From Paraphotobacterium marinum (GTDB lineage Bacteria; Pseudomonadota; Gammaproteobacteria; Enterobacterales; Vibrionaceae), in assembly GCF_002216855.1 (NCBI RefSeq), contig NZ_CP022356.1:682001-746000 (forward strand): a stretch of 64,000 nucleotides of DNA, read 5' to 3'. A model generated the notes under the pieces. The model made no database searches. It was not told the origin of the DNA and was given only the letters and a program-made list of their open reading frames with translations. Shown piece after piece: positions 7,214-61,820 of this stretch; within the stretch, counting starts at the first letter, position 1; each line of letters starts with the position of its first letter. The translations under genes were made by a program, and so were the position numbers.

Positions 7214-10140
7214 ATGGTTCATCTTTTGAAGTTATTAAAATGGATATTATTTGCCATTATTTCCGTCATATTTTTAATTTTATTTGGTTTTTCGATTTTT
7301 GCCATATATTTGAAGACATTAGGCATTACTATAGAAGGTTTTAGTGGTATTTCCTATGATAAAAAAAGTATTTACCTAAAAACATTAAAATTAAACTATG
7401 ATGGATTTATTGTTGACTCCCAAAAAATAAAAATCACAAAATCTGAAGATAACTGGTTTAATCTTAAAAACATATATCGAATCAGAACTAGCCAAACACT
7501 TATTCAAATTCCCGAAGATTTGCGCCAGAAATCAAAATTTATACCATCAACAGTCATTTTTTATAAAATGCATGCTCGTACATATCCAAAATTAATGTTG
7601 AAGAAAATTAAAATAACCTCCTCTCTGGTTATGGCCAACTCGAATGATAAACTTAATCTTTATACACTTTTTGATACAAAGTCTTTCTTTAAATATGATC
7701 CATTAAATAGTCAATTTTCAAGTCAAATAAAAAATGGAATAATTGATAACCTTGAATTCAATAAAATTAATTTGAAAAATATTCACTTTGATACAAGGTT
7801 TAATCATCTTAAAAGCAGTTTAAACTTTAGTGTTAATCAAGCCGAATCAGAAAAGCCAAATACTATCAAAGTTCAAAAACTTTTTGTACATAGCTCCTAT
7901 AAAGAAAAAGAAAGAAAAACTCTTTTGAAAATTCATTCGATCAATTTAAATCATCAATCCCAAAAAAAATTAATTTAAATACTAATGAACTGAAAAATTT
8001 ACTAAATTCCATATATAAAATAAATTTAAATACATTTAATGTTATTAAAGTTAATCATCTAAGATATAATCAATGGAATTTTGATAAGACTATTTTAAAA
8101 AAAAATAATCAGAGCCAAAGTTCTTTCATTGAGAGTTATTCAAATCAAAATAAAATAAATTTATCGATCCATGATAATCATAAAATCAATTTGAACATTG
8201 ATTATCAAAATGATGAATGTCAAATTACTGCCCAAAACACAAACATTGATAAAATTAATTGTGTCTTAAATATTGAAAACCCCCTTTTCAATAATTTAGA
8301 CATAGGGCATGTAATTGAGAAAAGAAAGGGAACTCTCTACATTAAATATGAAAACAATATATTGAACCTTCATTCAAATAAGGATATTAATATCCATTCT
8401 AAATACTTGAGTCAATTTGATATTGGTATCTCCGATGAAAAATTTTCTGTTGAGCCATTTGTAGCTAACTTTTTGGTAACTTCTCAAAAAATCAATTTAT
8501 TAAAACCTTCTTCAATCTTAGTGACTTCCAAAAATTTTAATGCAAAATCTGATATGAGAAAATTAACGTGCTCCTTTTCAAATTTTAAGTGTCATTCAGA
8601 CATCAAAAACTCTTTAAAATTAAAAAAGCTTCAGTTTAAAAAAGATATTTCAGTTTCTAACCTCAATTTAAATTTTAACTCCAACATGTTTTATAATTTT
8701 AACTCTGAAAGCTTTAATGTCTTTCTCAAACAGATAAAATTTGATATTAATCGGATACAAATTAAAAAAGATGAAGACCAAATATCTATTAAGGACTCGA
8801 GTGCTAATGTAAAAATGATTCACCTCAACTCATCCAACCCCAAAATAAACCAAAATAATATTGCATTCAATTCAACAGATATAATATTAGACAGTGAAGT
8901 TAATTTTCAAGATAAAACAGAAAGTGCTCTAAAAAAAGGAACTTGGATTACCCAAAATTATCGGCTAGGGATTTTAGGGACAATAAAATTAGAACCCACC
9001 CAAAACATTCATAAATTAGATTATGACTATACTATATTGACTAAATTAGATAAAAACAATCTCAAATTTCCCCAAATTAAACTAACTGGAAATGGACAGG
9101 TTAAAGATAAAGTGGTTGATTTAAATTCTAAGGTTCTAAATGAAAGCAATACTCTTTTAGCACATGTAAACATATCATCCATCAAAGACAACCACAAAAT
9201 AAAAATTCAAACAGTCCCATTAGAATTTAGCCAAGACAAAACTTTCCAAAACTTTTATTTAAAGGACTTTCCGTTAGATGTTGATATCACAGAAGGTGCT
9301 TTACAAATTAAATCAATTTTTAGTTGGCATAATAACCACTTTAGTAATCAAATTAATATCAAAGGACAGCATTTAAATTTGTCATTATTTAAAAATAAAT
9401 TTATAGGTACAAATTTAAATTTCCATTTAAAAGACTCTAAATTTAAATCCTTAGATGATGGATTTGTACAAGTTAAAAAAATTGAGGGACCTTTTATAAT
9501 CAATGATACAATGATTGATTGGAAAATGAACCCGTCTAACCCTGTCTATGGTGTGCTATCTTTAAAAAGTAGGATTTTTGGGGGTACGATCGAAGCCTTA
9601 AAAGTTCCAATCAATTTAAATAGCTCTGTTCACAATTTAAATTTAAAAATAAAAAAATTAAATTTAGATGAGGTTTTTGAAAAATTTGGTTATGGTGAAG
9701 TTTATGCCTCAGGATTTCTATCCGGTAATGTTCCAGTTATGCTGAAAGATAGACAAATAAATATAAAAGATGGTGATTTACATGCTACAACTCCCGGAGA
9801 ATTTCACTATGTTAAAAACTCTACGATTTATAATAGTATGGCAAAATCAGACAATGAAGCCGTAAGATTACTAAACCAAATTTTGAGCACATACAAATAC
9901 AATAAACTAAACTTAAACTTTGATTATCAACCTGAAGGGCTTTTGTTATCCAGATTTAGATTTGAGGGGTATTCAAAAAACTTTGATGGGGATAATGACA
10001 ATATTAGAGTTAATCTCAATGTAAATATACAAGATAATATTTTACAATTAATGAAATCAATACGAATGCTCAATTCTAATTATTTTGAAGATCAGATTAA
10101 TGATAATTTAAAGTGGAAAACCGAGGAATCAACGCCATAA
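7214..10140 (+). CDS. ydbH: YdbH-like intermembrane lipid-transport protein, reading frame broken at an A8 run
   Basis: A large AsmA-related protein of the YdbH family, anchored in the inner membrane by one N-terminal segment (residues about 8-32) and otherwise a long beta-rich periplasmic bridge. Two frames cover it: 7214-7978, then a frame open from before the stop through 10140. The switch is at eight As (7962-7969); one more A would give a single 975-residue protein. The C-terminal DGDLHATTPGEFHY and LNLNFDYQPEGLLL segments are typical of YdbH. By family knowledge YdbH pairs with the outer-membrane lipoprotein YnbE and with YdbL in phospholipid transport between membranes. Those partners lie 5 kb away at 15.2-15.8 kb. 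Whether the break is a sequencing error, slippage or true inactivation is open. Confidence 0.82.
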
Positions 10141-23761: not shown

Positions 23762-24319
23762 TTATTTGATGGCATCACCACTACCCTTACCCAGGCCTGT
23801 CAATACAATATATCTAAAATAAGTTTTGATAGACATATTTTCAATCATATTAGCATCAATCTTCGCAAGTTTCTCAGGCTCTGACATATCAATATTATTA
23901 ATTTGTGCTAAACCAGTAATGCCAGGTAATACATTATAAACGCCTAGCTCTGAACGCTCATTTATTAATTCTTTTTGGTTAAATAAGTTAGGTCTTGGAC
24001 CTACAAGACTCATATCTCCTTTTATAACATTAATTAATTGAGGTAATTCATCAAGTTTTGATTTTCGCAAGAAATTACCAAATGTAGTAATTGATGATGA
24101 GGATGCAAGATGTGTTGCCACTGACTGAGTTCCGACTTTCATGGTCCTAAACTTCATCAGTATAAATGGCTTTTGTCCTTTACCAACTCGTTCTTGTAAA
24201 AAAATAGGTGAGCCATTACTGTAATAATAATTAACAACTAAAATTATTAAAGTAAATGGTAAGGTAACAATAAATATCGGTATCGATAAACACAAATCAA
24301 ATAATCTATATTTCAACAT
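23762..24319 (-). CDS. Initiating sugar-phosphate transferase (PglC/WbpL-type bacterial sugar transferase)
   Basis: A 185-residue monotopic phosphoglycosyl transferase. It has one N-terminal hydrophobic hairpin (residues about 5-33), then FLQERVGKGQKPFILMKFRTM, RKSKLDELPQL (with the catalytic Asp-Glu pair) and GDMSLVGPRP, all conserved in the PglC-like core domain. It should move a sugar 1-phosphate from a UDP-sugar to undecaprenyl phosphate, starting a surface glycan. Its short length is that of the minimal PglC class and not of WbaP-type enzymes. The epimerase gene upstream overlaps its start by 14 bases once repaired. Confidence 0.92.
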   Translation of the reverse strand: MLKYRLFDLCLSIPIFIVTLPFTLIILVVNYYYSNGSPIFLQERVGKGQKPFILMKFRTMKVGTQSVATHLASSSSITTFGNFLRKSKLDELPQLINVIKGDMSLVGPRPNLFNQKELINERSELGVYNVLPGITGLAQINNIDMSEPEKLAKIDANMIENMSIKTYFRYIVLTGLGKGSGDAIK

Positions 24320-25234
24320 TAATCTTCTCTTCCTTTTTAAACTTTAAAAGAGTTTGCTCCATAGTGAATTTGGGTTGCCATCCAAGTAAATTTATAGCTT
24401 TAGAGCAGTTAACTTCAAAATTTCCAAATAATTGCTCTGTTAATCTTTTTCTAGCAAGAATGAGGCCTAATAACTTAAAAATAAAATAGGAACTGGTAAT
24501 TGTCTTGTTTTTTTTCCAAAAACACCATTAATTCTATTAGTTAGTTCTTTTGTTGATATTGATTCATTATCTGATATCAAGAAAGTTTGGTTAGCGACTT
24601 TATCGTTGAAAAGGCATAGTTCAATAAAATCAATAAAATTTAAAACCGATAAATAACTACGAGAGTTATGAGCCAAGCCAAAAGGTAAAATAGGAAGCTT
24701 TTTAACAAGTTTAACAAGGGTTGTAAAGTTACTTTTAACTCCATTTCCATAAACAACTGGAGGCCTAATAATAACAAAATCCATATTAGACTTTAATGCA
24801 AGAGATTGTAAACTCTGTTCAGCTTTATATTTAGAAGTAGCGTATGCATTAGCTGGAAATACTTTATCCTTCTCACTGAATGGTTTTTCATTCGTATTGT
24901 TCCCATTAACTAAAGCTGTACTTATGAAGATAAATCTTTTAACACCTGCACTAGCAGCTTCTTCAGCAAGTTTCAATGTACCTTTAAAGTTTATCTGTTC
25001 ATACTCTTCTTGATTGGTTTGTTCACTTTGTGCTATTCCGGCAAAATGGACTACTACATCAACACCATCGAAGGCTCCTTGCCAATTGGTATTGGTATTT
25101 AGACCATCAATTTCAAAAACATCATTGAAATTATTTTCTTTATTTTTTCTTACTACGCAACGCAGATCAAATTGAGTGTTTTTTACAAATTCACCACCAA
25201 TAAAACCTGTTGCGCCAGTTACTAGTATTTTCAT
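24306..25234 (-). CDS. NAD-dependent sugar epimerase/reductase (WbpV-like), frame broken at a T5 run
   Basis: An extended SDR protein with the NAD motif VTGATGFIGG near the N-terminus, the STALVNG catalytic segment and YATSKYKAEQ (YxxxK) near residue 145. The frame ends at 24467, but one more T (coding sense) in the five-base run at 24477-24481 continues a typical C-terminal domain (LLGWQPKFTMEQTLLKF) to 24306, giving 309 residues, the family length. Together with the sugar transferase and WbpM-like dehydratase this resembles the WbpV-WbpL-WbpM set for QuiNAc/FucNAc. The ATG at 25234 starts the NAD motif; another ATG lies three codons upstream, and the AGGAG before both is awkwardly spaced for either. 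Confidence 0.82.
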
Positions 25235-25243
25235 TATACACAT

Positions 25244-38942: not shown

Positions 38943-39991
38943 TTACCCTCTAACATTAGTAAGTCTATATAAGCTAATACTTAAAATAAAATAACTAATT
39001 ATAACGACCGTACTGGTCAATAAGAGTAAAAGCCATGGATGGATACTAAAGTGCTGAATAAAAAAGTGTATCAACGTAACAATTAAAATAAAAGAGAATG
39101 CACAAGCCAAATAAGAAGATTTTGATAACATCCTTGTCATTTTATTGGATTGATAAAAATAAATTTTAAATACATATAATAAAAATAGTATCATCCCAAC
39201 AGAGCAAAAAGTTCTAAAGATTGCATTATTAAAATGACAGCCAATTAGAATCCACCCATTTTCTAAACAATAAAAAAAAGAAAACAATATGAACCCAAAA
39301 AAGCCGTACTTAAAATCAATTTTATCAAACCATTTATTTTGATAAGAAATTATTCCTAAATAAAAAACTGACGCATACGTAGGAAAATATTTAATATTGT
39401 ACATACCCAAAAAGTCATTATTGCATTTATAACTCAATAATAAAGCAATAAAATTAAATGGAATCATGAAAAAGCAAAAAAATAACATATGAGTATAAGT
39501 TGGTAAAGGTAAACAATGGTTTTTGTTAAAGCTTTTATTTTTAGAAAATTGACTCCATATCAATGTAAAAATAAGTAGCATCCAGCAAAACCATGATGAA
39601 CCTATAATATTTTTCCATTGTAAATTTACTAGATGATCAAATAACCAAACCTGATAGCCTATAGAATCATTTTGTTTTGAGATATGGTAGTGTATATAAT
39701 TGACAATAAAGATGGTAAACAGGATCACACTGCCTAAACGAATTATTTTATCTTTATTAAATAATTTTTGCCCTTTTTTTAAATAAGATGGAATTACAAA
39801 ATAACCCGATATGAGAAAAAAAAAGTCGATAAAAAAGTTTGATCTAAAGATGAAACATTATCAAAATTCTCTTTGTATTTGGGATACATCTCTTGTGTAT
39901 AAATGAATACATAATGCATCATCATTACAATAGTTAATAACCATTTAATATTATCAAGATAATGTATCCTAGTTATACTATTTTTCCCCAT
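38943..39991 (-). CDS. Acyltransferase 3-family membrane protein, frame broken at a T9 run
   Basis: Two frames form one protein of 349 residues. The first (39991 to 39794) begins with the family motif RIHYLDNIKWLLTIVMMMHY, which holds the catalytic His. The second (to 38943) holds the remaining eight or so membrane segments. Adding one T (coding sense) to the nine-base run at 39816-39824 yields the expected FFFLISGYFVIPSYLKKG segment (family FFxxSGF) and joins the two. Family members O-acylate surface sugars, lipids or antibiotics. The target here is unknown; no glycan gene adjoins it. Confidence 0.78.
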
Positions 39992-40334
39992 AAACCTATT
40001 TCGATTTGCTAAAAGAGTGTCGTTGATTAACTTTATGATGAAAAAAAATTGCTAACAATATATTTGTGATATATGTATGTTTTTTTGGTCTAGGATGAAG
40101 ACTTTGGGAATAAAATTATGATTTTGGGATAGAATATATACAACTTTATATCCAATCATAGGTTTTTATAAATGAAATTAGCTACCAGTGAGTATGCAAA
40201 TCATTTAATTAAATTAGATTAATGGTTAAACCTAAAGGTTAATAATGATTTTTATGTGTGATTTTTTAATTTAGAGTCAAATTTTTAGGAGAATATTTTT
40301 TATATCGTAACTTGTCAAAGCCAATAATCTTTGA
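39992..40334. other. Gene-free stretch upstream of the acyltransferase
   Basis: About 340 AT-rich bases between the acyltransferase start and the APC terminator. A short GATTTTGGGATAGAAT-like direct repeat occurs near 40090-40135, but I cannot tie it to a function. No supported ORF. Confidence 0.4.
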
Positions 40335-43944: not shown

Positions 43945-46535
43945 TCAAAAATATTTTTCTAATCGCTCTATCAATTGTGCTTTTGTAAATGGCTTTGCTA
44001 AATAATCATCCATCCCAGATCTAAAACAAGCTTGAATTTCTGAATTCATAACACTTGCTGTTAATGCAATTATGGGTACCTTATCCATAAACTTTGTTTT
44101 TTCTAATTTTCTAATAGCCTTGGTAGCCTCAAAACCATCTAAAATAGGCATCATACAGTCCATTAAAATAATTTTTATGTTGGGTATTTCACTATACATT
44201 TGAATGGCTTCTTGACCGTTTTCTGCAACTATAAAATCAAACCCCGCATTTTTTAAAATCAAAGTAGTCACTTTCTGATTAACTAAATTATCCTCAACCA
44301 CCATAATCAAAGCTTTACTCTCATTATTATCTAATTTGTTGAATGCTTTATTTCTCGTGTCAAAAGAATTTTTTTGTAAAATAAAATTTCTAAATTTTTC
44401 ACCAAGAATAGAGGAATGATATACTGAATGAAATTCTTTGATACTATTTTTTATATTAGCTTTTCTATCAAGAACAATAAGCCTTGGTATTTTTATATTC
44501 TCAGTAAATTTAACTTCGGCATCATCTATTAAAAGAGTTGTATATGATAAATAATCATTGGGTTTTACATCCTTTAACGTCTCAACCACTTCATAATTTG
44601 CGCATAGTATTTTAAGCTCATGAACAACTTGACTCAGTAGATTTTTATTAGCAAAGCATAATAGATAGATTGCTGTATTTTTTTATCTATCTTTTTTCCC
44701 ATCAAGTTTTCTTTAGGATTACTTTCTAAAGGAATGAATACTTTAAAGGTAGTTCCATGATCTTTCTTTGATTTTACTTCAATTCTTCCTTTCATCAACT
44801 CTATAATCTGTTTTGAAATAGCTAATCCTAATCCAGTTCCACCATATTCTTTAGTTATTGAGTTATCGCCTTGATTAAACGGTTTAAAAATATCTTGAAT
44901 TTTCTCATCATCAATACCAATACCAGTATCTATAACTTTAAGAATTACCATTTTATTTTTTTTAAGTAACTCAATATTTATTCCTCCTTTTGAAGTAAAT
45001 TTAATAGCATTTGATAATAAGTTAATAATGATTTGTGATAAACGATGATGATCGCTGTAAATTTTTACAGGTAAGTCTTTGTCCATAAATATATTTAATT
45101 TGAGCTGTTTCTCTTTTAATTGAGAAAGCATAATATTTATATTTTCATAAATTAAATCCGTAAAATTAAACTCTTCTTTTACTAATTCAACATTTCCAGC
45201 CTCAATTTTTGATAAATCTAAGATATCATTGATCAAAATTAATAAGTGTTTTGATGATGAGATGACGGTATCTAAGTATTCTTTTTGATTTCTCTCGAGA
45301 GATGTTTCAAGCAAAACTTCTGTCATACCAAGAATACCGTGTAGTGGTGTTCTTATTTCATGAGACATATTCGCCAAAAAGTTACTTTTTGCACGATTCG
45401 CTTTTTCGGCTTCATTTTTAGATCTAAGTATTAATTTTTCACTTTTTCCCACTTCCATTATCAGTTGATTTAATTTATTAGTGAGATGATTAAACTCATC
45501 TTTTCCAGCAAGCTCAAGTTTAACGCCATAATCATGAGTTCTTTCAACAAATGCCAAACGATTGTTTATATATTTAAGAGTTTTAATAATTCTTCTGGTT
45601 AAAGCTAAAATAATGACAACAGCTATGAAGATAGACAGTAAAAGTATAACATTTAAAAGCCAAAGAATTTTCTTCAAAGATTCAATCTCTTTAATCACTT
45701 CATCTGTTATCTGTTTTTCAACAGAAGTGACTACTTTTTTTAAAACATTAAACCTAGATTGATATTGATATATATCCAAAGCTTCGGGTGTGTGAGTGAT
45801 CTCACCTTTCAAATATTGATTTCTGAGTTTAAAACTGGCAACAAATTCAGGCTTTTTGAATGCTTCTAAAAACTCATTGATAAATTTAGCATCAGTAGAC
45901 GAACCAACAAATCTCTCAATATAATATTCTTGAATATTGATCAATTTTTTTAATTGTTCAATGTTTTCAGGTGACGTATGATCATGATTGCTTGTAAAGC
46001 ATTCAAAAATATACCAGTTTTCTTCTTGCGCCCAATACATCAACCATCTTAATTGGTTAAGGGAGTTTATATCTCTAATTATTTTTGAAGACTCAATAGA
46101 CTGAGGGACCAACTCATTTAACAAGATGGTTTGTTCAATAATTTCATTTCGCCATTGACTCCAATCATTTATATTGTTGATATTCAGGTTTTTAGAGTCT
46201 GTCATAAGAGCAATGTATTCATTAAGGTTAATTTGATAGTTATTAACACTTCCTTTTAAAAAATCATTAAAATCATTGAGTAACTTTTGATTTTTGAATA
46301 TTAAATTTTGATAATTGTTTTTGGTTATAACATTTAGTCTAATAGCATGTGTCAACTCACTAAATACATTTAATTTATTGTTAAATGTCATTGTTTCTTC
46401 AATAGTATTGAGTGCAACCATTTCCTTATTAATACTTCTGTAACTAATAAAGTAAAAGCCACCCAATAAAAATATAATAAGAACTAAGATAATTAATAAT
46501 CTTGTTTTAATTGAGAAGTTATTAAATACTTTCAT
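43945..46535 (-). CDS. Hybrid sensor histidine kinase with two receiver-like domains, frame broken at an A7 run
   Basis: One 863-residue protein split in two frames. Residues 1-633 as written hold a membrane helix (12-32), a helical periplasmic sensor of about 255 residues, a second helix (290-312), a HAMP-like segment, HisKA with His392 (NMSHEIRTPLHG) and an HATPase domain (DTGIGI, GTGLGL). Adding one A to the seven-base run (44678-44684) joins this to a degenerate receiver and an intact receiver (IILMDCMMPILDG with phospho-acceptor Asp; ALTAS; Lys in YLAKPF). It is divergent from an operon encoding a phosphate-binding-like protein and a porin, 95 bases away, so those are likely targets or partners in signalling. 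Confidence 0.85.
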
Positions 46536-46630
46536 GCAAAATCCTTTGCGTTTTGAAAATAATAATCTAACTTAATTATAGACATTAGTATTAATTTTAT
46601 TAAATCTTTCTTTTAATTCAATGGATTGCC

Positions 46631-47065
46631 ATGAAAAGAATTTTTATTATTTTATTGTGTTTCACAAATTTTTATTTGCATTCTGCAAATATAAAGTTTG
46701 GTGTATTTACACTAAATAAAAATATACCTTTTCTATCGAAAAATAAGGTGAGACTGATTTATAAAGGACAGATTAAGACGTTACCAAACATCGGAGTTAT
46801 TAAACTGGTAGATCTTCCATCTGGATCAAAGGATAAAAAAGAATTCTACGAGAATCTTTTAAAAAAAACCGAAATTCAGGTTAACAGGTACTGGACCCAA
46901 CTTGCCTTTTCGGGAAAAGGGTTTCCACCCTATTCTCTAAACTCTAATCAAATGCAATCTATTATTAATTGGCTTAAAAAAAATCCAAATGGTATTGCTT
47001 ATTCAAGATTAGATCTCATACCAAAAAGCGCAAAAATTCTCTATGTAGTTGAGGACAATTCATGA
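46631..47065 (+). CDS. PstS-like small periplasmic binding protein
   Basis: A 144-residue exported protein with a signal peptide (residues 1-19). The body corresponds to one lobe of the PBP-like/PstS fold often annotated as a phosphate ABC transporter substrate-binding protein: FLSKNKVRLIYKGQIKTLPN near residues 34-53, VDLPSGSKDKKEFYENLL near 60-77, YWTQLAFSGKGFPPYSL near 89-105 and NPNGIAYSRLD near 120-130. No ABC permease or ATPase is nearby, so it is probably a sensor accessory protein and not a transporter component. Its stop overlaps the porin start. Confidence 0.75.
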   Translation: MKRIFIILLCFTNFYLHSANIKFGVFTLNKNIPFLSKNKVRLIYKGQIKTLPNIGVIKLVDLPSGSKDKKEFYENLLKKTEIQVNRYWTQLAFSGKGFPPYSLNSNQMQSIINWLKKNPNGIAYSRLDLIPKSAKILYVVEDNS

Positions 47066-48129
47066 TGAAAAAATTCTTTTTAACTTTTATGCTCTTCTCA
47101 ACGCAAGTGATTTCAATAGAGATTGGTGATACTGATTTTTCTGTAAGTGGCTTCGGTAATACATCAGTAACCACTTCTAACAATAAAAACCCTCTAATCA
47201 TAAATAGGGATATTACAGATGAAACATGTTTTAACTGTGATACAACTTTAGGACTTCAACTAGATTATACACCTGATAATTGGTTTAGATTTTCAGCTCA
47301 AACAGTTAAACCACCCCAAAACCCCTTTTCAGAAGTAGATATTGAATGGTTATATATAGCTGCCCGTTTATCAAATAAAACCGAACTTCGTGCAGGAAGG
47401 TTAAGATTACCAGTATTTATGGCTTCACCCTATTATTATGTTGGTAATTCATATCTTTGGGCAAGGCCTCCAACGGAGGTGTATGACAGTCTTTTTGGCA
47501 TTACATCTTTTGATGGGGTTGAACTGCTATGGAATGAATCTTTATCTGATAATTTAGTATTGTCTATTCAACCCTTTTTAGGTTACAGAGATACATCTTA
47601 TGAAAATGGGCTCTTAGAAACAAAAATTAGAGCCAATAACGTTGTTGGTTTAAATTTAGGTTTATCAAGTTACTCCTATAAAATAAACTTTTCATATGTA
47701 TATACCAATGCAAATTTAAAGCAAATTTCACAAATTAATGTTTTAAATTCACCTGAGAGCAAAATTATTTTAAATTTATTTAGCCTTGGCTTTGAGTATG
47801 AATTTGAAAAGTATAAAATTCAAACAGAATTTAATATTGATAGTGAGTTTTTTAACTGGTATACCACGCTATCCTATAACATGGAAAAGCTTACACCCTA
47901 TCTGACTTATGCTGAAAGTCATCAACTCAGAAAATCGAATAGTGTAACAGTAGGTAGTCGATATGATATCTTACCAGAGTTATCAATTAATTTAGAATAT
48001 GAGTATTTTAAAAATTATGGCGGAGATTATATATTTTTTGGACAATATTCATATCCTCAGTCTTTTCTTCCAGAAAAATCAAGTGTAGATGCATCATTAT
48101 TTACTGTAATGCTCAACTTCAGTTTCTAA
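47062..48129 (+). CDS. Outer-membrane beta-barrel porin-like protein
   Basis: A 355-residue protein with a signal peptide (residues 1-18) and alternating hydrophobic/polar strands ending in a terminal Phe (LFTVMLNFSF), the outer-membrane insertion signal. SVSGFGNTSVT at the N-terminus and LRAGRLRLPVFMAS near residue 115 resemble porins found beside PstS-like proteins. GAGGA lies six bases before the first of two adjacent ATGs. It overlaps the upstream binding-protein gene by four bases and is followed 36 bases later by a peptidase gene. Confidence 0.82.
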   Translation: MMKKFFLTFMLFSTQVISIEIGDTDFSVSGFGNTSVTTSNNKNPLIINRDITDETCFNCDTTLGLQLDYTPDNWFRFSAQTVKPPQNPFSEVDIEWLYIAARLSNKTELRAGRLRLPVFMASPYYYVGNSYLWARPPTEVYDSLFGITSFDGVELLWNESLSDNLVLSIQPFLGYRDTSYENGLLETKIRANNVVGLNLGLSSYSYKINFSYVYTNANLKQISQINVLNSPESKIILNLFSLGFEYEFEKYKIQTEFNIDSEFFNWYTTLSYNMEKLTPYLTYAESHQLRKSNSVTVGSRYDILPELSINLEYEYFKNYGGDYIFFGQYSYPQSFLPEKSSVDASLFTVMLNFSF

Positions 48130-48165
48130 TCTATAATCATAGTAACTGTAGCACTCGAGATAAAA

Positions 48166-49205
48166 ATGAAATCATCTGATTACAAGAGATTGCCTGAGTT
48201 AAAACAGTGTGAGTTAATAAATACAAGGCTTAAATCTCTAAAAAAGAAAACCAATCTATTTTTTTTAAATCTCATATCCTCAACAATATTATTGCTGGAA
48301 ATGTTAAATTACCTATTTATTCTTTTTCTATAGGAAGTATGTCTATTGATAGCCCGTCAATTACTTTTATTGGTGGGATACACGGCCTAGAAAGAATTGG
48401 TTGTCAATTAATTTTATCTTTTTTAAATGGACTGATCCAGAAATGTTATTGGAATTCAGTTCTTTTGGATAGTTTAAGAAAAATAACTATCAATTTTATC
48501 CCGATGGCAAATCCAGCGGGTATTTATTTTAAAAGAAGAGGTAACATCCACAATGTGGATTTAATGAGAAATGCCCCGATCGATAGTAAAGAAAAAACAG
48601 CTTGGTTAGTTGGAGGACACCGAATTTCAAGCTATCTCCCTTGGTATAGAGGAAAAAAAAATGTTATTGAAATTGAAAATGAAACAATAATAGATTACGT
48701 GAAAAAATATTTGTTTCCTCGCCCTTTCAACTTAATTCTCGATTGTCATTCGGGATTTGGTTTACACGATAGGATTTGGTTTCCATACGCTAAAAGTAAA
48801 AAATACCCCATATCAGACATAGGCAAACTTTTTTATTTACGTAAAATGTTTTTTTTAAGTCATCCACATCATAACTATATATTTGAACCACAGTCACAAC
48901 ATTATCTATGTCATGGTGATTTATGGGATTATTTATATGATTTATCTCAAAGTAGTAATAGAATAATACTTCCACTTACTTTAGAAATGGGCTCCTGGGC
49001 ATGGATAAAGAAAAATCCATTGCAAATTTTCAATAGCTTGGGTTTTTTTCATCCTATTAAAAACCATAGAATAAAAAAAGTTATAAATAATCATAATATT
49101 CTTTTTAATTTTTTAATTGATATTGTAATGAACTATAGCAACTGGTATGAAAATAGTCATTTACCACTATATAGAAAAAAGGCAATGACAAAATGGTATA
49201 AATGA
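48166..49205 (+). CDS. M14-type zinc carboxypeptidase (DUF2817-like), frame broken at a T8 run
   Basis: A 346-residue protein once one T is added to the eight-base run at 48259-48266; as written, the frame from the ATG at 48166 stops near 48330 and a second frame covers the rest. The repaired junction reads AGNVKLPIYSFSIGSMSIDSP, in line with the family. The zinc motif HGLE (family HxxE), a later His in LDCHSGFG and the catalytic Glu in LTLEMGSW are intact, so an active metallopeptidase or amidase is likely. The next gene starts immediately after its stop. There is no signal peptide. Confidence 0.78.
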
Positions 49206-49955
49206 ATGAAGGTAACATTAGTTCTCTTAAGAGGTTTAATGCGTGACAAACGACACTGGCGTAGCTTTATATTAGCATTAGAAAAACACAAACATTTTAA
49301 TGTTTTTTGTATTGATTTACCTGGTACAGGAGAGCTTTCTCACATAAAATCACCTTCAAATATAGAAAGTTGTGCTAAGTATCTAAATAAAAATATTCCT
49401 CATTTTGGTATGCCCGTTTATATTATTGGTCTTTCAATGGGGGGAATGGTTGCATCAGAGTTTATGAAAATACAAAATAAAAATAGAATTTTTGGGATTT
49501 TTATCATTAATAGTAGTAATGGTGCATTTAATAAATTTTATCAAAGACTAAATTTTAAAAGTCTTTTATTAATACCTTTTTTTCTAATTCTAAGTGCTAA
49601 ATATCAAGAAAAATTAATAGCTTATTTAACTTCTAATAATTCTAAAATTGTACAAAATGAAATTCAATATTGGTTTATTTATCGAAAACAAAGAAAAATC
49701 ACGACCTTAAATTTTTTAAGACAGTTATATGCAAGTTCTCATTATAAACAATATTTAAAACCCTCAGAAAATATTGTTTTTATTGGCTCAAAAAAAGATC
49801 GCTTAGTTAATTTTAACTGTACAGAAAAATGGGCTAAAGCTTGGCAATCAAAATATTATATACATGAAACAGCTGGACATGATATTCCCTTAGATGATCC
49901 CATATGGTTAATTAAGATTTTACAATCAGAATACATCAGACTCAATAAAGATTAA
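49206..49955 (+). CDS. Alpha/beta hydrolase
   Basis: A 249-residue cytosolic hydrolase. The oxyanion segment LRGLMRDKRHW (residues about 7-17), the nucleophile elbow GLSMGG (Ser near residue 79), a late Asp in FIGSKKDRLV and the catalytic His in TAGHDIPLDDP form a full triad. The substrate is unknown. The ATG directly follows the TGA of the peptidase gene, so the two are coupled and probably act together, perhaps on a peptide or ester taken up through the porin upstream. Confidence 0.88.
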   Translation: MKVTLVLLRGLMRDKRHWRSFILALEKHKHFNVFCIDLPGTGELSHIKSPSNIESCAKYLNKNIPHFGMPVYIIGLSMGGMVASEFMKIQNKNRIFGIFIINSSNGAFNKFYQRLNFKSLLLIPFFLILSAKYQEKLIAYLTSNNSKIVQNEIQYWFIYRKQRKITTLNFLRQLYASSHYKQYLKPSENIVFIGSKKDRLVNFNCTEKWAKAWQSKYYIHETAGHDIPLDDPIWLIKILQSEYIRLNKD

Positions 49956-60807: not shown

Positions 60808-61820
60808 TTAATTTAGTTTTTTAACTACATTCACTAAGAAAATCAAAACAGGAACCTCTATAAGTGGTCCAATAACTGTTGCAAATGCTTGAGGCGAGTT
60901 AATTCCAAAAACGGCTATAGCTATAGCAAGAGCTAATTCAAAATTATTTCCCGCAGCTGTAAAAGCAATGGAAATATTTTTTTCTCTCTTTATCCTCAAA
61001 AGTTGTCCTAGACCATAACTCAGAAAAAACATAATAAAAAATATAAAATTAACGGAATTGCAATTAATATAATATCAATGGGTGTTTGAGTGATTGCCCT
61101 ACCTTGAAGAGCAAACATTAAAATAATTGTATAAATTAATGCTAACGGTGCTAAAGGTGACACTAATGGAATTATAAATTCGTTGAGCCACTTTTCATTT
61201 TTAAATATTAGGGAAAAATATCTTGTCATACCAGCAAGAATTAATGGAATACCAAGAAATATTACAACATTTTTAAAAACCAATACTAGTGAGATATTTA
61301 TATCCACTCCTAAAAAACCCATTTTTGATGGTAAATAGCTGATAAAAAACCATGCATATCCACTATAGAAAAAAATTTGGAAAACACTATTCACTGCTAC
61401 CAAAGTAGCACCCCACTCTTTATTACCATCAGCTAAATCATTCCATACCAATACCATTGCAATGCATCGAGCAATACCAACTAATATTAATCCGACCATA
61501 AACCCTGGATAATCTCTTAAAAATGTAATTGCAAGTAAAAACATTAATATGGGACTAACAACCCAATTTAATACTAATGATAATGACATCGATTTCTTAT
61601 CTTTTATCACTTTTTTTGTAAGAGAATACCTAACTTTCACTAGTGGAGGATAAATCATTAATATTAAACCAATGGCTATTGGGATGTTAATATTTCCGAA
61701 ACTAAATTTATTCACCATAATATCTAAATGACTTACGTTATTTCCAAGGGTAATACCAACTATAATAGAAATAACAATCCAAATAGTTAGGTATTTTTCA
61801 AAAAAGTTTAATGATTTCAT
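60808..61820 (-). CDS. ACR3-family arsenite exporter, frame broken at a T6 run
   Basis: Two frames, 61820 to 61020 and 61032 to 60808, join to a 337-residue transporter if one T (coding sense) is added to the six-base run at 61036-61041. The repaired junction reads PLILYFFIMFFLSYGLG, the expected helix. ARCIAMVLVWNDLADGN near residue 113 carries the conserved Cys of ACR3, and FTAAGNNFELALAIAIAVFG is the helix-9 motif. ACR3 exports arsenite, and sometimes antimonite, with the proton gradient. No arsC or arsR is adjacent, but a large palindrome lies at its promoter. Confidence 0.87.

Follow-up and report, generated by a model that had tools for sequence, protein, structure and literature searches.

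Gene arrangement at the locus

The window analysed here, a 64,000-nt stretch of the Paraphotobacterium marinum genome (contig NZ_CP022356.1, positions 682,001 to 746,000), carries between its positions 43,945 and 49,955 a hybrid histidine kinase gene that faces genes for a small PstS-like protein, a porin, an M14 zinc carboxypeptidase-like enzyme and an alpha/beta hydrolase (Table 1). A sequence-only reading had taken all five for one sense-and-use system, in which the porin would admit a ligand, the binding protein would present it to the kinase, and the two hydrolases would process it. Comparison with other genomes divides the set: kinase, small protein and porin are a conserved module across genera, while the M14 peptidase and alpha/beta hydrolase are a conserved pair of their own, unrelated to that module.

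The arrangement itself is as that reading described it. By open reading frame (ORF) coordinates, the kinase is divergent from the small protein/porin side; the small protein and porin genes overlap by four bases (47062-47065); 36 bases lie between the porin stop at 48129 and the ATG at 48166; and the peptidase end (49205) and hydrolase start (49206) abut. By eye, the 14 ORFs of 100 amino acids or more between 40 and 54 kb, ten of which were searched against Pfam, include no apparent ABC transporter. Domains above Pfam cut-offs at the locus are HisKA, HATPase_c, receiver, M14 peptidase and alpha/beta hydrolase. A promoter and terminator scan of the locus gave matches no more than expected by chance. 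A TTTGTAGTTACATCAATGTCTACTAT-like motif, possibly a promoter or operator, is common to several Photobacterium divergent intergenic regions (among loci L055-L066).

Table 1. Features of the P. marinum locus (window coordinates)
Feature	Position	Strand	Remarks
Hybrid histidine kinase, N-terminal part, 633 amino acids	44634..46535	-	Helical NIT-fold sensor (model), HisKA, HATPase_c; ends early at frame break
Remainder of kinase gene, other frame	43945..44589	-	Linker region and receiver domain
Kinase frame-break stretch, both frames overlapping	44634..44684	-	
Divergent intergenic region, kinase/small protein, 95 bases	46536..46630	none	
Small protein, 144 amino acids	46631..47065	+	Single PstS-like lobe (model); signal-peptide-like N-terminus (by eye)
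Porin, 355 amino acids	47062..48129	+	CxxCD motif common to this porin clade
M14 peptidase gene, N-terminal fragment	48166..48333	+	Frame stops early; outside kinase/small protein/porin module
M14 zinc carboxypeptidase-like ORF	48234..49205	+	Stop-to-stop frame with conserved part; separate pair with hydrolase
Alpha/beta hydrolase	49206..49955	+	Partner of M14 peptidase

Conservation of kinase, small protein and porin

Of 103 confirmed relatives, the best 80 were kept as named loci encoding the small protein (L055-L134); two of these, L081 and L086, share a contig and appear to be a duplicate. By record titles, entered by hand, they come from Photobacterium, Vibrio, Shewanella, Moritella, Aliivibrio, Thalassotalea, Colwellia, Pseudocolwellia and Ferrimonas, with two metagenome-assembled genomes (MAGs) lacking a genus. 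A porin adjoins the small protein in all 80, directly after it in 79 and before it in one, and in most of them the two genes overlap or are spaced by a few bases. A receptor with a homologous sensor stands beside this pair in 71: 56 are divergent kinases, 14 are co-directional kinases, and one is a GGDEF-EAL protein. All but two are within 300 bases (69 of 71); in L092 and L101 the receptor is ~1.75 kb off, with a second small-protein/porin pair in between. The co-occurrence survey that had been proposed as a check thus keeps these three genes together, with a sensor-homologous kinase beside the pair in 70 of the 80 loci. Among the neighbours outside the three, up to four genes on each side, no cluster occurs in more than three genus groups; the top cluster is a second sensor kinase, missed by the core window of the survey. 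In a set of 40 relatives, eight have kinase, small protein and porin, and in two more the kinase is missing beside a small protein and porin of the same clade.

Distance matrices for 68 loci gave a partial correlation of 0.49 between small protein and sensor (catalytic domain removed) versus 0.28 between small protein and catalytic domain (sensor removed), and of 0.57 between porin and sensor versus 0.31 between porin and catalytic domain, differences that are weak evidence and may merely reflect a longer, faster-evolving sensor. The highest partial correlation, 0.66, is that between small protein and porin.

Other receptors beside the same pair

By profile search, the small protein is encoded in 68 of 274 genomes drawn across Gammaproteobacteria; it is present in 108 of 197 sampled Vibrionaceae. 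The surroundings of the gene were surveyed in 69 stretches covering 67 of the 68 genomes (that of the window was left out). Fifty-seven were used; the other 12 had no small-protein ORF past the ORF filter, two of them having long fused ORFs. A porin adjoins in 36 of the 57 by profile and a porin-like ORF, meaning one of 330-500 amino acids on the same strand within 100 bases, in 15 more, for 51 altogether. A receptor is found within 2.6 kb in 33: a methyl-accepting chemotaxis protein in 14, a GGDEF+EAL protein in 10, a histidine kinase in eight and a GGDEF protein in one. Both a porin or porin-like ORF and a receptor are found in 31. Near the small protein, 39 of the 129 non-porin ORFs with 300 or more amino acids are receptors, versus 3 of 103 at greater distance (Fisher p 1.2e-8), a contrast that rests on related genomes and on stretches of unequal length. 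Chemoreceptor, GGDEF, EAL and kinase domains were confirmed by Pfam in all ten examples tested.

Single cases show the same range. In L103, from a MAG, a NIT sensor homologous to that of the window kinase is attached to a GGDEF-EAL output, and two Pseudoalteromonas replicons have a “porin,” a “phosphate ABC transporter substrate-binding protein” and a “methyl-accepting chemotaxis protein” annotated side by side. Because the porin/half-PstS pair is so often beside chemoreceptors, GGDEF/EAL proteins or kinases, the output of the receptor next to it is exchangeable, among phosphorelay, chemotaxis and cyclic di-GMP signaling.

Components of the module

The kinase sensor sits between two membrane helices (judged by eye). 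Its AlphaFold2 model (pLDDT 89) matches NasR (4akk) with Z 22.9 and a root-mean-square deviation of 3.6 over 260 aligned residues; the next match has Z 10.4, and TorS Z 7.9. The modelled sensor thus has a NIT fold. The Pfam NIT profile (PF08376, gathering score 24.9) gives 17.4 bits for the window sensor and 29.7 bits for L103, and is listed at E ≤0.1 for 24 of 63 sensor family members (best E 2e-7), although a family not listed for a member is not thereby excluded. Sequence matches of the sensor to solved structures were uninformative, and gave no residue-level alignment to NasR. In the sensor stretch from residue 13 to residue 112, none of the charged residues is shared by more than 60% of the 63 family members. 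A NIT domain can bind its ligand directly, as described for NasR, which keeps both nitrate-binding arginines (passages of PMC8199190); a NIT chemoreceptor domain that does not bind nitrate is reported in a passage of PMC6381276. Given the latter and the missing conserved charge at 13-112, nitrate-type binding is doubtful here, and nitrate sensing, though possible, is unsupported by the fold. Compared with NIT receptors such as NasR, then, the fold is shared, but the sensor here has no conserved charged residue in this region and has partner proteins.

The model of the small protein (pLDDT 90.5) has its best structural match in 9l8j (Z 12.9), followed by 1twy (Z 12.7 over 109 residues). It matches E. 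coli PstS (9k3x_E, Z 10.6) at residues 65-244 of 321, and 2abh (Z 9.3) at residues 77-244, which we take to be one lobe; Foldseek TM-scores by query are 0.55-0.62 for 14 matches at E ≤0.001. The 144-residue protein is accordingly modelled as a single lobe of the PstS fold, not as the two-lobe whole. The earlier description of it as a PstS-like binding protein therefore stands as to fold, with the qualifications that the match covers one part of PstS only and that the phosphate motif is missing. That motif is of the RxDxSGT type; its SGT is found in none of 71 small-protein members and none of 18 in a second aligned set, and in a weak profile match to 4q8r (E 0.076) the stretch aligned with the SREDGSGTR of that protein lacks the motif. 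Phosphate sensing was considered and is disfavored on these grounds. Fusion to a receptor would have been a proof of contact, but the two fused ORFs (L166, L167) carry the small protein behind a soluble-looking N-terminal part and one membrane helix (by eye), not behind a receptor. On the Alteromonas plasmid MRG65-300 (L187) the small protein adjoins a set of type IV CRISPR csf genes, and the downstream gene, in the position expected for the porin, is annotated as hypothetical.

The window porin scores 22.7 bits with Pfam Porin_4, below the cut-off of 27; porins of two relatives, L055 and L177, are above it (scores of 30.4 and 51.4 bits among relatives). Porin_4 matches at E ≤0.1 were found for eight of ten porin family members, and Pfam searches of the L172 and L045 porins gave no match. 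A CxxCD motif is found near the N-terminus of 77 of the 79 porins that neighbour the small protein in the named loci, in none of the 47 porin matches in the class-survey stretches, and in two Vibrionaceae porins (G004, G014) without an adjoining kinase. In one order-level relative (L042, genome G025), another ORF interrupts the module porin and the kinase is in two ORFs.

Broken reading frames

The kinase gene of the window is not a single ORF: the 633-amino-acid frame ends past the ATPase domain, and a different frame carries the receiver. Kinases of 884, 889 and 896 amino acids from three relatives each align to the window across two frames, and intact single-frame copies exist in relatives. 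The M14 peptidase gene is broken near its N-terminus: the frame of the ATG at 48166 reaches a stop at 48333, and four relatives begin to match at 48264-48309, in the reading frame that gives the ORF 48234-49205. What had been read as a hybrid kinase with a helical sensor is upheld in its domains (HisKA, HATPase_c and receiver above cut-off, NIT fold by model) but not as one continuous ORF; the zinc carboxypeptidase-like enzyme likewise keeps its family assignment and its 36-base spacing, but not its intact gene.

Another four window genes each look, by eye, as if divided over two frames: an epimerase gene (24306-25243), an SBF-family transporter gene (60808-61820) and a YdbH-like gene (7214-10140), each with its main or larger ORF above the Pfam cut-off, and a probable acyltransferase gene (38943-40051) with its ORF below it. 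Pfam matched none of their second fragments, which leaves the split a judgement by eye. Homopolymer runs are present in all six junction regions (kinase, peptidase and these four), although with 5.3 runs of six or more per kb in this DNA the chance of runs at all six is ~0.03. A programmed frameshift in the kinase was considered on account of the A-runs at the break; since five other window genes, the peptidase included, also look broken, a common cause is likelier. The genome of strain NSCS20N07D was assembled by HGAP from one PacBio RSII SMRT cell, and the relevant passages name Illumina solely for 16S amplicons and in references (PMC5649133); the title of the same paper calls it the smallest complete Vibrionaceae genome. 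Sequencing error would account reasonably well for the frame breaks; real decay in a reduced genome may also have caused them, and the two are indistinguishable.

The peptidase and hydrolase

The M14 ORF scores 48.7 bits with Pfam (cut-off 21.6) and has, by eye, the residues HxxE...H...E, which we take to be the M14 metallocarboxypeptidase motif. Of 24 Vibrionaceae M14 matches, loci were available for 20, one of them the window; the hydrolase adjoins the peptidase in all 19 others and in three of three from other families of the order, 22 of 22 in all. In four of the 40 relatives the peptidase is next to the hydrolase elsewhere in the genome. Neither enzyme was found in any of the 80 small-protein/porin loci.

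Nor do peptidase and small protein go together at the genome level. Among the 197 Vibrionaceae, the peptidase (E ≤1e-20) is found in 24 and together with the small protein in nine, without positive co-occurrence (odds ratio 0.45, p 0.08). In the eight of these other than P. marinum, the two are on different contigs in five, which count as apart solely by contig separation in draft or multi-replicon assemblies, and are 189, 583 and 687 kb apart in three; a further two genomes of the order likewise have them far from each other. Since the enzymes pair with each other in 22 of 22 loci elsewhere and are in none of the 80 module loci, in P. marinum an unrelated peptidase/hydrolase pair came to lie behind the porin. 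The five-gene operon was rejected on the same counts as one conserved system, and with it the claim that the two hydrolases belong to a co-occurring set of five. A sense-and-use system including two cytosolic hydrolases has the tight gene spacing in P. marinum in its favor, but in view of these distributions it is very improbable.

Possible signal output

A stand-alone Hpt gene is ~3 kb or less from the porin in 13 of 19 Shewanella loci, and next to the porin in one relative (G010). Five of the 13 (L068, L074, L075, L084, L085) also have a receiver ORF of ~400 amino acids, which Pfam identified as a receiver-SpoIIE phosphatase in each of the four searched. In the same five, small ORFs that by eye are STAS-like and anti-sigma-kinase-like round these genes out to an apparent partner-switching set. 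The combination of Hpt and receiver-SpoIIE phosphatase beside the module resembles the HptB-HsbR-HsbA phosphorelay; P. marinum differs in that a search for SpoIIE in its genome gave no match. It has four Hpt matches, of which just one, LuxU-like and encoded next to a LuxO-like regulator, stands alone; the LuxU and LuxO assignments are best matches that are below the NCBIfam equivalog cut-offs. The kinase receiver may signal through this LuxU-like Hpt protein.

Possible functions

The locus probably holds a three-part envelope sensing module, made up of an outer-membrane porin, a one-lobe PstS periplasmic protein and a transmembrane receptor, here a hybrid kinase with a NIT sensor. In such a module the porin would admit or bind a solute; the small protein would dock on the periplasmic domain of the receptor and report the solute or the state of the porin; and the kinase would hand phosphate via its receiver to an Hpt protein. 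The small protein may, as suggested by the sequence-only reading, present a ligand to the kinase. The association of the three rests on their conservation; docking, ligand and direction of the signal we infer.

Several observations weigh against a three-part module. Within 2.6 kb of the small protein, 24 of the 57 class-survey stretches lack a receptor, and nine of the 80 named loci have no sensor-homologous one (one of these is at a contig end). The near/far contrast and the distance correlations are open to the reservations given with them above. The small protein, with neither phosphate motif nor second lobe, may bind nothing. In P. marinum itself, the kinase gene is broken in this assembly, and the sensor deviates from its family at several conserved positions.

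Several of these points would fit other explanations. If the half-PstS protein were a subunit or plug of the porin, the receptor would monitor the state of the outer membrane or the porin, and not a solute. The porin is indeed the more constant partner (80 versus 71 of the 80 named loci; 51, or 36 by profile alone, versus 33 of the 57 stretches), the close spacing or overlap of the two genes and their top partial correlation would suit such a unit, and a plug needs no phosphate motif; but the fold of the small protein is that of a solute-binding lobe, and a plug seems rather less than likely. It is also conceivable, but unlikely, that the kinase senses its ligand directly by the NIT domain and merely controls expression of the porin and of a porin-associated small protein, itself outside the signaling path. 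Direct ligand binding by NIT domains (as in the passages on NasR, PMC8199190), the shared 95-base divergent intergenic region and the 24 stretches with a small protein and no nearby receptor would be accounted for. Chemoreceptors and GGDEF/EAL proteins, however, are not themselves transcription regulators, and they replace the kinase beside the same pair; nitrate-type binding is in any case doubtful, by the lack of conserved charge in the 63 sensors and the NIT domain reported in part of PMC6381276.

A last alternative concerns P. marinum alone and is compatible with a sensing module elsewhere: the locus could be a decaying relic, with kinase and peptidase as pseudogenes in a reduced genome. 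Both genes are broken, the genome is the smallest complete one of the Vibrionaceae by the title of PMC5649133, and at conserved positions, 203 and 218 among them, the window sensor differs from the rest of its family. The four further split-looking genes and the PacBio RSII/HGAP assembly described in passages of that paper suggest sequencing error instead, although the homopolymer runs at the six junctions add weak evidence only, such runs being common; and the small protein and porin are intact. Decay is a serious possibility, if short of an even chance.

Comparison with known systems

Periplasmic binding proteins work with hybrid kinases or GGDEF-EAL receptors in TorT-TorS, LuxP-LuxQ and NspS-MbaA. 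To our knowledge these have full-size binding proteins and no constant porin gene, and the sensor here fits NasR far better than it does TorS (Z 22.9 versus 7.9). Binding-protein-assisted receptors are thus already known, the closest likeness being Pseudomonas aeruginosa CtpL-PstS phosphate taxis, in which, according to passages of PMC4926252, a PstS-fold periplasmic protein feeds a transmembrane receptor. That PstS binds phosphate and belongs to a phosphate transporter; the system described here has a single lobe without the phosphate motif, a porin partner and several receptor outputs, and no ABC transporter gene was seen adjacent to it. No published description of a module with a constant porin, a half-size binding protein and a range of outputs was found in the openly licensed PMC literature.

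More tentatively, and with the balance tilted against it at present, the porin and half-PstS relay may define a widespread, unnamed class of envelope signaling systems: the two would form a conduit that leads from the outer membrane to a receptor in the inner one, with freely swapped outputs and a relay reporting porin occupancy or flux and not phosphate delivery. Porins are usually regarded as passive, and the small protein is present in about a quarter of the sampled gammaproteobacterial genomes and more than half of the sampled Vibrionaceae. If the three proteins do work together, entry through the outer membrane would be a sensory step in its own right, and a different function would fall to proteins that annotation currently assigns to phosphate ABC transporters as binding proteins.

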